A DNA stretch of 64,000 nucleotides, from contig JAIOSV010000031.1 in the NCBI GenBank assembly GCA_021107435.1, positions 1 through 64,000 on the forward strand, written 5' to 3'. Positions 8,814 to 60,848 of the stretch are shown one piece after another; position 1 is the stretch's first letter; each line of letters begins with the position of its first letter. Under the pieces are notes generated by a model. It was not told the DNA's origin. It saw only the letters and a list, made by a program, of their open reading frames with translations, and did not search any database. Both the position numbers and the translations under genes were made by a program. This DNA is from Candidatus Sabulitectum sp. GTDB lineage: Bacteria; Fermentibacterota; Fermentibacteria; Fermentibacterales; JCC-6.

Positions 8814-10246
8814 TATTTGCCACCTCCAACTTCAACGCCTCTGAACCGGCTGTAGCTTGCTCCGTGAGTCATTCTGGCAGACTGACCGGGCTCACCCTTG
8901 CCGCAGGTAAGAAGACCCATTGTGCGGAAGTACTTTTTGTCAGCTATTCCGTCAAGCGAACCCCAGAATTCAGGTGTTCTGCTTCTGTAGATTACTTTCT
9001 TCAGAGGTCTGACTTTCTTCCCGTTTTTTATTTCCCAGAAGAGGTCTCCGCCAAACTGAAAGTTCTCTCTTCTCTGGTCGATGGAAAATGATCCCCTGCC
9101 TTCAATCCAGATTCCGTGATTGATTTCTGAAGCGAGATCCTCCGGGGTTACACCGTTTTCAGGTGCTTCCAGATAGAAGTTCGGCTGTCTGTTGATAGGG
9201 AAACACTGGGCATTCATTGCCCGGCAGCAGCCTGTGCTTGCTTTTTTTCCTATAAGAAAGGCCGTCTCGCGAACAGAACCAAATTCTTGAAAAATACCGT
9301 TCTTCACAGTGTACCATTTTTGACCCGGTACCATGTCATCGTCCCAGCCCCAGGTTGCAACTCCAAAAGGCAGTGTGTTGTCTGCCAGCAGGTTAACCAT
9401 ATCAGAGCCGTAACGAAGATTTCCCTGATCGGTAATATTTACGAAAGTTCTTCCAGCCATATTGGCTTCCCAGCCAAGGGCGCGATCGCTTTCTGTGGGG
9501 TGACCGACCGACTCGTGCATGGTGAGACTAAGGTGAAGACCGTCCAGAATCAGATCCATCTCCCCGGATGGACTCTCGTCTGCAAGAACCTTCATAAGAG
9601 CTTCTTCTCTGGCCCTCTCTCCCCAGGATTCGATACCCGATTCCTCGACCCATTCCCATCCTGCAATTCTGGCACCGTCCTGAAGCATACGGCTCTGGGC
9701 ATCACCACCGGCAACAGCTGTCGCCATAAGAGTGGGCTGTGTAAATATCAGGTCAGTTTCAATAAGATCGCCACGGGTAGTTCCTATGATTCTATCCCGC
9801 TTCTCAAACCATAGCTGAGCATAACTGCTTTTAATCCGGGGATCCTTCATCATGTCATCTGAAGCCTTCTGGAGAATGGTAATTTTGTCTTCACGGGAAA
9901 CCTCGAATGGATCCTTTCGACAGGGGCCAGAGTAAACTCCCTGCTGAATATCCAGAGGGGCAAGTTTAATCTTTCCCCGGCTTCCGGCAGCCCTTGCAAT
10001 ATCAACTGCTCTTTCCACAACAGCTTCAATGTCATCATTATTGAGGCCGGTGCACGCGGCAAACCCCCAGCTGCCGTTAACCAGAGCCCTTATCCCTACA
10101 CCTTCGGCCTCAACCGTCCTGCAGTCATCAAGTCTTGCGTTCCGGAAATCCGTATTTTCCGTGCGAATCAACTCCGCCCTGACATCACCGTAATCAACAC
10201 CGATATCCTTCAGGATTTCAACCGCTCTCTGAACCAGCTGTTTCAC
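8813..10246 (-). CDS. tldD: TldD metalloprotease, catalytic subunit
   Basis: This 477-residue TldD has the zinc motif HESVGH (HExxxH) at about residues 244-249 followed by PTESDRALG, diagnostic for the family. The C-terminal half carries the conserved NFYLEAPENG and GRGSFSIDQRRENFQFGG segments. It is predicted to form a protease with TldE, feeding extended peptides into the barrel. The GTG start overlaps the rseC-like stop by four bases (GTGA). Length is normal. No peptide precursor gene is evident in the window, so housekeeping peptide turnover is the default role. Confidence 0.92.
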   Translation of the reverse strand: MKQLVQRAVEILKDIGVDYGDVRAELIRTENTDFRNARLDDCRTVEAEGVGIRALVNGSWGFAACTGLNNDDIEAVVERAVDIARAAGSRGKIKLAPLDIQQGVYSGPCRKDPFEVSREDKITILQKASDDMMKDPRIKSSYAQLWFEKRDRIIGTTRGDLIETDLIFTQPTLMATAVAGGDAQSRMLQDGARIAGWEWVEESGIESWGERAREEALMKVLADESPSGEMDLILDGLHLSLTMHESVGHPTESDRALGWEANMAGRTFVNITDQGNLRYGSDMVNLLADNTLPFGVATWGWDDDMVPGQKWYTVKNGIFQEFGSVRETAFLIGKKASTGCCRAMNAQCFPINRQPNFYLEAPENGVTPEDLASEINHGIWIEGRGSFSIDQRRENFQFGGDLFWEIKNGKKVRPLKKVIYRSRTPEFWGSLDGIADKKYFRTMGLLTCGKGEPGQSARMTHGASYSRFRGVEVGGGK

Positions 10247-58254: not shown

Positions 58255-59250
58255 ATGGCCAACATCGGAGTAGTAGGACTTGGCTACTGGGGTCCTAATC
58301 TTTTGAGAAACATCATATCCAGCAGAAGAAGCGACAAAATCGTGATTTGTGACAAGGATCCAGGACGTTTAAGCAAGATAGCAGAGAGATTTCCAACCTG
58401 CCGCAAAACTCTGGACGCCACAGATATCTTCAATGATCCTGATATCGATGCAGTGGTAATCGCTACCAGCGTCTCCAGTCACTACCCTCTGGCAATGGCG
58501 GCGATGAAAACAGGCAAGCATGTTTTTGTGGAAAAACCATTCGCAGAGGATACAAAAAAAGCAGAAGAGATGGTGCGATACGCAGAAAACAACGGACTGG
58601 TAACCATGGTCGGTCACACATTCCTCTATTCTCCTCCTGTGCTGAAGATCAAGCAGATCCTTGACAACAAGGAACTCGGCGACATCAGATTCATCACAAG
58701 CAACAGAGTTAACCTTGGATTGCATCAAAAGGATGTCTCTGTTATCTGGGATCTTGCGCCTCATGACTTTTCCATGCTTTTCTACTGGCTTAATGAGGAA
58801 CCAAACTTCGTTGAAGCTTTCGGGCATGACTATGTTTTGAAAGGTATTCCTGATGTAGCCTTCATAAATCTCGGATTTCCCAGTGGAGCAATCGCGAATG
58901 TACAGGTGGCCTGGCTGGCTCCTTCCAAGCTGAGGAAAACTGTCATTGTGGGAAGCCGGAAGATGCTCATCTACGATGATACCGAGCCTAACGAGAAAAT
59001 CAAGATATTTGATAAGGGAGTTGACATTCTGGAACCGGAGACTTTCGGTGAATACCAGCTCTCTTACCGTACTGGAGACATAGTCAGTCCGCAGATTGAC
59101 TCCTTCGAGCCTCTTCACTCCGAAATGGAAGAATTCCTCCTCTGTATAGAAACGGGAGAAACTCCTAGAACATCCGGCAGAAGTGGCATGGGCGTTGTCA
59201 AAGCACTTGAAATCGCAGACAAAAGCCTTTCTGCCAAGCTGAATAAGTAA
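58255..59250 (+). CDS. Gfo/Idh/MocA-family oxidoreductase
   Basis: The start at 58255 has GGAGG five bases upstream; the frame to 58216 is ignored. The 331-residue protein has the Rossmann motif IGVVGLGYWGPNLLRN, the family EKPFAEDTKKAEEM (EKP with catalytic Lys, near residue 96) and WDLAPHDFSMLFYW (His near 178). Members oxidise sugars or inositols with NAD(P); several make nucleotide-sugar 3-ketosugars (WlbA-like). It starts a three-gene operon with the pseudo-ABC ATPase (six bases downstream) and its membrane partner. The substrate is unknown. Confidence 0.88.
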   Translation: MANIGVVGLGYWGPNLLRNIISSRRSDKIVICDKDPGRLSKIAERFPTCRKTLDATDIFNDPDIDAVVIATSVSSHYPLAMAAMKTGKHVFVEKPFAEDTKKAEEMVRYAENNGLVTMVGHTFLYSPPVLKIKQILDNKELGDIRFITSNRVNLGLHQKDVSVIWDLAPHDFSMLFYWLNEEPNFVEAFGHDYVLKGIPDVAFINLGFPSGAIANVQVAWLAPSKLRKTVIVGSRKMLIYDDTEPNEKIKIFDKGVDILEPETFGEYQLSYRTGDIVSPQIDSFEPLHSEMEEFLLCIETGETPRTSGRSGMGVVKALEIADKSLSAKLNK

Positions 59251-59256
59251 CAGACC

Positions 59257-60207
59257 ATGAAGCAGCCTCCCAAGGTTCTTCTGAAATACCTCGGCGTCTC
59301 ACTGGGAAAAGGCTTACCCCTTTCCATTGATTTTGCTGTACTGGCAGGAACAATGGCGGCTCTTCTGGGAGACGAGAATTCTGCAGCCGGCACTCTAGCT
59401 GAGTATGCTGCAGGGTTCTCGTCACCACCTGTGGGTAAAGTCGTAACAGGAATCGGCATGGCACCGTCCACTTCTCGAGAGGGCAGGATTTCAACAGGAT
59501 ACATATCCGCAGATATTGACACGCCTCCCGGAATGACCGCAAGAGGTTGTATCAATCTTGCAGTAGCCGGTTCCGGAAAAAACAGGAAGGAAACAGTACA
59601 ACTCACAAATCAGCTTCTGGAGTGGCTTGATCTTAAATCTCTGGACGGCGTTCCCGTTGAGAAACTTGAACCATCCGAGGTTCAAAAAACTGCAATGGCA
59701 ATAGCAATGGCTACTTCACCTGAACTTCTGGTTGTTGAATGCCCTGTGCACGATTCTCTTCATGCAAAACTCAAGACTTTCTCTGAAGCAGGTAACACTG
59801 TTCTTTTCAGAGCCTCATCCCTGGGACAGATACCCTACGGCGTGGAACGCATAGCACTCTGCGACAAAAACGGTATCAGCAGAACTGTCAGACACTCGGA
59901 ACTCGCAGCAATGGCGGTTGGAGGCTCAGAAATAACTGTTTCTTTCTACCCTTCAATACCCCGTAAACAACTTGAAATGATTGAAGGAATAAAGAATTTG
60001 GTCCATACTGACGGGGTATACAGATTTACCCATACAGACACAAGATACGCCATCACTCAGTTGATGCTCATAGCAAGAGCGAACTCAAGAGCTGTTGTGG
60101 GACTTAATCTGTCTCCCATTCCTCCCGATACACTTCTTAAGATGTTTAATCCACCTGATGAGCTCCAGGCTTCAGTTGATTTGTTCGGCGAGGAGGAAGG
60201 TTTCTGA
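59257..60207 (+). CDS. degenerate ABC-type ATPase domain protein (pseudo-NBD)
   Basis: This 316-residue protein aligns end to end with an ABC-2-type nucleotide-binding domain but has lost every catalytic motif. Walker A is GDENSAAGT (about 38-46), where GPNGAGKST is normal, so the lysine is gone. The signature LSGGQ is LEPSEVQ (137-143), preceded by the LEWLDL helix. Walker B is LLVVECP (157-163), with Asp-Glu replaced by Glu-Cys. The H-loop histidine near 187 is Ser (TVLFRASS). A C-terminal extension of about 100 residues follows. Overall fold elements and spacing are kept, so it has probably been preserved as a non-hydrolysing regulator or scaffold. The stop is two bases before the membrane-protein start at 60210, and six bases separate it from the oxidoreductase. 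Confidence 0.72.
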   Translation: MKQPPKVLLKYLGVSLGKGLPLSIDFAVLAGTMAALLGDENSAAGTLAEYAAGFSSPPVGKVVTGIGMAPSTSREGRISTGYISADIDTPPGMTARGCINLAVAGSGKNRKETVQLTNQLLEWLDLKSLDGVPVEKLEPSEVQKTAMAIAMATSPELLVVECPVHDSLHAKLKTFSEAGNTVLFRASSLGQIPYGVERIALCDKNGISRTVRHSELAAMAVGGSEITVSFYPSIPRKQLEMIEGIKNLVHTDGVYRFTHTDTRYAITQLMLIARANSRAVVGLNLSPIPPDTLLKMFNPPDELQASVDLFGEEEGF

Positions 60208-60209
60208 AC

Positions 60210-60848
60210 TTGCAGATAACCATTCTTACAGCCCGCATGATGTGGGAAAGAGCAATCAACATGAGCAGCAGACTCTGGCTCGGCGGTCTTCTTCTGATTA
60301 GTCTGCTGATAATTACTCCAAAGCAGCAAATACCCTATCAGTTTGTTTCTTTTACAGTATTGTTTCCTGCGGTGTTTCTGCTTACAGATTGGAGCAGTTC
60401 CGCTGCCCGAAAGAGCATGATGTTCATAACCACCAGAGGTACTGGCAGAAAGCAAGTCAGGACAGCCGAGTGGCTTTTCCCGTCACTGGCAGGAGCAGTT
60501 ATCTCTTCGATAGCTGTATTCACCGTATCAGCTCCTCCTCCGTGGCAATTCTGGGTTGCTGCATCACTGATTGCGACTTCGTTTTCTCTGATCCTTCTTA
60601 TGACAGAGCAGCATTTGAAATATGCAGGCAGAGCAGTTCTTTATCTTATGTGGCTTGCTCAGATCACAGGATTCCGGCAAACCGGTCGAGTTACCGATTT
60701 CCTGCTGTTTACAGGATATCCTGCCGCTGTTCTGATAGCAGATCCAGTTGCCGGATCACCTCATCCCGACAGTTATGTACTGGCATCACTGGTGATAATG
60801 TTCCTTGCGGCAAGTACCTATGTGTATTTACTGAAAAGAAACAGCTGA
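60210..60848 (+). CDS. ABC-2-like membrane protein, partner of the pseudo-ATPase
   Basis: This 212-residue protein starts at TTG 60210 (GAGGAGGAAGG nine bases upstream). About six hydrophobic segments are visible (LWLGGLLLISLLIITP; FVSFTVLFPAVFLLTDW; FPSLAGAVISSIAVFTV; FWVAASLIATSFSLILLM; LTGYPAAVLIADP-like; YVLASLVIMFLAASTYVYLL). The N-terminal ITILTARMMWERAIN resembles the amphipathic start of ABC-2 permeases. No ATPase with intact motifs is nearby, so the pair is a membrane complex with a dead nucleotide site. Its last 21 bases overlap trmFO tail to tail. Confidence 0.7.
   Translation: MQITILTARMMWERAINMSSRLWLGGLLLISLLIITPKQQIPYQFVSFTVLFPAVFLLTDWSSSAARKSMMFITTRGTGRKQVRTAEWLFPSLAGAVISSIAVFTVSAPPPWQFWVAASLIATSFSLILLMTEQHLKYAGRAVLYLMWLAQITGFRQTGRVTDFLLFTGYPAAVLIADPVAGSPHPDSYVLASLVIMFLAASTYVYLLKRNS

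Follow-up and report, generated by a model that had tools for sequence, protein, structure and literature searches.

The window analysed here, 64,000 nucleotides in length (positions 1 to 64,000 of contig JAIOSV010000031.1, assembly GCA_021107435.1, Candidatus Sabulitectum sp.), comes from a metagenome-assembled genome (MAG) of the uncultured candidate phylum Fermentibacterota (Hyd24-12). Three genes on the forward strand at 58255–60848, referred to as c3, P1 and P2, encode an oxidoreductase, a degenerate ATP-binding cassette (ABC) ATPase and a six-helix membrane protein, respectively. P1 is an ABC ATPase by descent, of the ABC-A/DrrA/GldA type (COG1131-like), and consists of a nucleotide-binding domain (NBD) and a C-terminal domain. 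Judged from its sequence, P1 is dead, every nucleotide-handling motif being lost across the orthologues. We assign a probability of about 0.5 to the reading that P1 assembles with P2 into a 'pseudo-ABC-2' complex, for which ATP would be neither needed nor hydrolysed. As far as searched, this ABC-derived system with a wholly degenerate NBD is confined to one phylum.

The descent of P1 (59257–60207, forward strand, 316 residues) was determined from profiles, fold and alignment. The match of Pfam ABC_tran to the single P1 sequence had an E-value of 4.9e-4, which is under the curated cut-off. A profile built from 19 P1 orthologues matched ABCA3 at E 8e-25 and 4yer, the Thermotoga ABC ATPase TM_1403, at E 7e-18 over residues 21–301, the C-terminal domain included. 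The NCBIfam matches across the P1 set included NodI, DrrA, RbbA and GldA, and the hhalign probability against GldA-type proteins was 99.8%. An AlphaFold2 model of P1, calculated from 27 sequences and no templates, had a mean pLDDT of 78. The Foldseek search with this model resulted in E 1.9e-13 for 4yer, and the matches to 4yer, NosF and the NBDs of ABCA proteins spanned E 1e-13 to 1e-11. Because of the orthologue profile and the structural matches, the ABC homology of P1 exceeds chance, and the ABC NBD fold predicted for this protein by the first-pass annotation was borne out. Residues 213–300 (59893–60156, forward strand) are the counterpart of the ABC-A ATPase C-terminal domain, according to the fold and to the 4yer alignment reaching residue 301. 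P1 thus shares the NBD fold, the C-terminal domain and a full-length match with the ABC-A/DrrA/NodI/GldA-type ATPases (4yer TM_1403, NosF, ABCA NBDs). In contrast to them, its motifs are all replaced and its D-loop is deleted in every orthologue.

The motifs were counted in an alignment that contained 39 P1 orthologues and canonical ABC ATPases from the same genome; the position of the Walker A Lys was aligned in 38. All the features of P1 described below lie on the forward strand. The former Walker A reads GDENSAAGT (59368–59394), in which the Lys is replaced by Ala44; Lys was found in 0/38 orthologues and Ala in 33. The former signature is LEPSE (LEPSEVQ; 59665–59679), and neither LSGGQ nor LSKGY was present in any orthologue. 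In the former Walker B, LLVVECP (59725–59742), the Asp is substituted with Glu161 and the catalytic Glu with Cys162, the latter Glu being found in 0/39 orthologues. The former switch (H-loop) His is Ser187 (59815–59817; His in 0/39). These losses had been described for the P1 of the window from its sequence, and they proved to be conserved throughout the set: no orthologue with intact motifs was detected, nor was a fold unrelated to ABC NBDs predicted. The first reading had also stated that the fold landmarks and their spacing are preserved, which held for the fold and not for the spacing, since, in comparison with canonical ABC proteins, 39/39 orthologues lack about 7 residues after residue 166 (59754–59755), the D-loop among them, a deletion that the first reading had overlooked. 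Among the non-orthologues retrieved with the P1 profile, Walker A and B were intact at all eight loci inspected. P1 probably does not bind nucleotides.

P1 was found in 40 of the 42 Fermentibacterota genomes, and the two that lack it have completeness values of 66% and 77%. The boundary of the P1 set is sharp, as the profile score drops from 1e-104 for the lowest complete orthologue to 1e-27 for the best non-orthologue. In the tree, the P1 sequences grouped as a single clade (support 100/100) on a long stem, the attachment point of which within the ABC-A ATPases was not placed. The tree is consistent with a single loss of the motifs before the phylum radiated. The pairwise omega values of P1 were 0.06–0.09, compared with 0.02–0.05 for c3 (where estimable) and 0.17–0.25 for P2. 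P1 is under purifying selection and is therefore no pseudogene. The stable, non-hydrolysing role that had been suggested for the protein is supported.

The constraint on P1 has shifted off the nucleotide site, because the mean conservation percentiles of the former Walker A and signature were 0.30 and 0.38, respectively, which is below the P1 average, while the most conserved block measured lies in the C-terminal domain. This block, the RANSR motif (60076–60090), with R274, A275, N276 and R278 invariant, reached a percentile of 0.80. For a canonical ABC-2 ATPase from this phylum, the orthologue group gave corresponding percentiles of 0.79 for Walker A and 0.75 for the signature. The former Walker B strand of P1 has retained fair conservation (0.66), in line with its being a core strand. 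Further invariant residues of P1 are W123, P193, C202, F230, P232, R236 and E240. L309 and F310 of the C-terminal DLF motif (60178–60186), in a tail modelled at low confidence, are also invariant. The DLF sequence may be a short binding motif.

P2 (60210–60848, forward strand, 212 residues) begins with a TTG start codon and is preceded by a Shine-Dalgarno-like sequence, AGGAGGAAGG, at 60191–60200 of the forward strand, within the 3' end of P1. P2 was present in 41/42 Fermentibacterota genomes; in about 344 genomes searched outside the phylum, nothing beyond chance fragments was found. No Pfam or NCBIfam family matched P2 over threshold, and the sequence search of the PDB gave no match. The predicted model (pLDDT 85) contains an interface helix (residues 2–17), six transmembrane (TM) helices (TM1 19–35, TM2 38–58, TM3 79–106, TM4 112–135, TM5 138–152, TM6 186–211), a coupling helix between TM2 and TM3 (65–73) and external helices before TM6 (162–176). 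The charge distribution obeys the positive-inside rule. Conservation and the model point to three regions of P2, all on the forward strand: the coupling-helix region with conserved W61, S64 and R67 (60390–60428), the PWQ motif of the TM3-TM4 loop (residues 111–113; 60540–60548) and the HxD motif at the start of TM6 (H185, D187; 60762–60770). The latter two are predicted to lie at the outer face. The top 13 PDB matches of the P2 model in Foldseek were all ABC-2 or ABCG proteins, with NosY, KpsM and Wzm as the best. The predicted topology agrees with the six-helix, ABC-2-like partner that had been proposed for P1, and P2 can be called ABC-2 permease-like, a label given by topology and fold and not by sequence.

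In the proposed complex, two P1 subunits would clamp two P2 permease-like subunits at their cytoplasmic face. P1 would hold and gate P2 via the preserved coupling-helix contact and its own C-terminal domain, through which P1 would also be dimerised and which, with RANSR, would be its functional core now. P2 could then serve as an ATP-independent facilitator, a gated path or an envelope scaffold, with the conserved W/Q/H/D cluster at the outer face. The binding of P1 to P2, the stoichiometry and the role in transport or scaffolding are inferred. The model is supported by the loss of the motifs and the D-loop in all orthologues of one fully supported clade, by the low omega of P1 and P2, the fixed linkage of the pair and the constraint lying off the nucleotide site, and by the ABC-2 topology and conserved coupling-helix residues of P2. 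It is also supported by the genome G013 (98% complete), which retains P1-P2 and has no c3 match, so the pair does not require c3. A precedent for an ABC-type transmembrane domain working without ATP is SbmA, the membrane fold of which is related to ABC transmembrane domains and which is driven by the proton gradient independently of ATP (PMC13316013). The SbmA/SLiPT secondary transporters share with the proposed P1-P2 an ABC-type membrane fold without ATP hydrolysis; in contrast to them, the P1-P2 locus keeps a dead NBD and P2 is of ABC-2 and not SbmA type.

Several observations weigh against this model. The Foldseek probabilities of P2 were 0.97–0.99 for the first few matches, yet the E-values were 0.14 or weaker and the TM-score was ~0.55. 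The hhalign comparison of P2 with GldF-like proteins and with the genome's own ABC-2 permeases was not significant. The sequence of P1 is also compatible with a noncanonical nucleotide site.

The first-pass annotation had proposed that P1 works with an active ABC protein elsewhere. In such a half-transporter, P1-P2 would combine with an active ABC-2 ATPase and permease encoded at another locus. The resulting heterodimer would be asymmetric, with ATP hydrolysis left to the partner. Degenerate sites are common in heterodimeric ABC exporters (PMC7756269), about 40 matches to ABC_tran and several ABC-2 systems occur in the genome itself, and one canonical ABC-2 ATPase is present in 38/42 genomes of the phylum. 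However, in a composite site the Walker motifs, Q-loop and H-loop are supplied by one NBD and the signature by its counterpart, the D-loops bracing the dimer (PMC7756269). Since P1 has lost both site halves and the D-loop, neither composite site formed with a normal NBD would be canonical. TM287/288, TAP, CFTR and Pdr5, like P1, contain an NBD that is naturally without catalytic residues; these transporters have one degenerate nucleotide-binding site and keep one canonical composite site (PMC7756269), whereas P1 no longer contributes to either site and lacks a linked partner, no ABC partner gene being found in the neighbourhoods examined. The open-access literature searched contained no example of an entirely dead ABC NBD accompanied by a permease of its own. 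The half-transporter is thereby weakened and was considered unlikely. Even less probability was given to the idea that P1-P2 anchors c3 to the membrane, or acts on it allosterically, in sugar-nucleotide or envelope-glycan synthesis, with no transport involved. The c3-P1-P2 order is kept across three families of the phylum with gaps of ~6–10 nucleotides in the genus of the window, and c3 is related to UDP-GlcNAc 3-dehydrogenases (a match under the family cut-off). These points are countered by G013 and by the c3 homologues outside the phylum, which are common and had neither P1 nor P2 as neighbours at 20 loci; an intact ancestor of P1 was not found beside c3 at these loci either.

P1 might instead be a sensor, binding a nucleotide or another small ligand at a remodelled noncanonical site, as the Walker A loop has kept its length and, in 34/39 orthologues, its first Gly, and the invariant RANSR could bind an anion. 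The P-loop region is, however, comparatively poorly conserved within P1, unlike a selected ligand site, and no orthologue retains the Lys, catalytic Glu, His or D-loop; a sensor was judged improbable, slightly more so than the c3 partner. The explanation of P1 as a decaying pseudogene or an assembly artefact, to which the degenerate motifs and one frameshifted MAG copy could point, was refuted by selection and phylogenetic depth and was left with almost no weight: the open reading frame is intact in the great majority of genomes, the gene order is fixed and the presence is near-universal. The frameshifted copy (L054, G011:C8) has frameshifts in c3 (four pieces), clpB and P1, in which the signature/Walker B region is shifted and then restored; these are likely to be assembly errors in a low-quality MAG. 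A fusion of P1 to its neighbours in family f3, where open frames of 533–814 residues occur, was rejected, as c3 and P1 are separate genes there and the long frames were interpreted as open-frame read-through.

The 'pseudo-ABC-2' complex of P1 and P2 can tentatively be extended, at a little short of even odds, to a phylum-wide ATP-independent system in which both proteins, derived from ABC transporters, would have been remodelled into a core device of the envelope, which would either gate or facilitate flux or serve as an envelope scaffold. Degenerate ABC systems known so far retain one functional ATP site. If true, all nucleotide-handling motifs were lost before the phylum radiation in a protein with its own membrane partner under purifying selection. 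The system would then offer a clean natural test of what NBDs contribute other than ATP hydrolysis, and a marker envelope complex peculiar to an uncultured phylum.

The comparison with Gld-type complexes, made in the first reading, stood in part. Outside the phylum, the canonical proteins found to be most closely related to P1 are of the GldA type. They are encoded in GldA-GldF-GldG-like operons and are followed by a small ABC-2 permease, a relationship that may be a sign of ancestry. On the other hand, P1 is degenerate and the tree does not put it inside GldA. GldG (PF09822, ABC_transp_aux) was not detected in the genome itself, and 41/42 genomes of the phylum had no match. P2 as a GldF is unsupported (no sequence similarity, hhalign probability 0.1%). 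P1-P2 was not assigned to the GldAFG systems. The sole GldG-like (PF09822) match in the 42 genomes (L163, G003:C135:1693–2592) may be contamination or a recent acquisition. Another ATPase of the window's own genome (L094, C16:10352–10933) is a canonical ABC-A ATPase, the switch His of which is replaced by Ala (TTAYLDE). It belongs to a tandem ATPase-ATPase-permease-permease operon, in which the other ATPase lies at 9478 and both permeases are of the ABC-2 kind; this is probably an RbbA/YbhF-like type.

The first gene of the block, c3 (58255–59250, forward strand), encodes 331 residues from the ATG at 58255. It was assigned by Pfam to the Gfo/Idh/MocA-family oxidoreductases (GFO_IDH_MocA, 4e-25; C3 domain, 2e-13). 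At the orthologous loci c3 is 63–93% identical and adjoins P1 in nearly all, and P1 and P2 adjoin wherever the contig permits. In family f33, the two genes after c3 look unrelated. The intergenic gaps in the window are 6 and 2 nucleotides, and this spacing together with the conserved order makes cotranscription of c3-P1-P2 likely. The promoter and terminator scan gave nothing exceeding shuffles, no RNA element reached the gathering score, and both P1 and P2 were without a match to anti-phage defence systems in PADLOC. The block is flanked upstream by the divergent clpB and downstream by a convergent GidA/TrmFO-type gene, the 3' end of which overlaps that of P2 by ~21 nucleotides (60828–60848 of the window).
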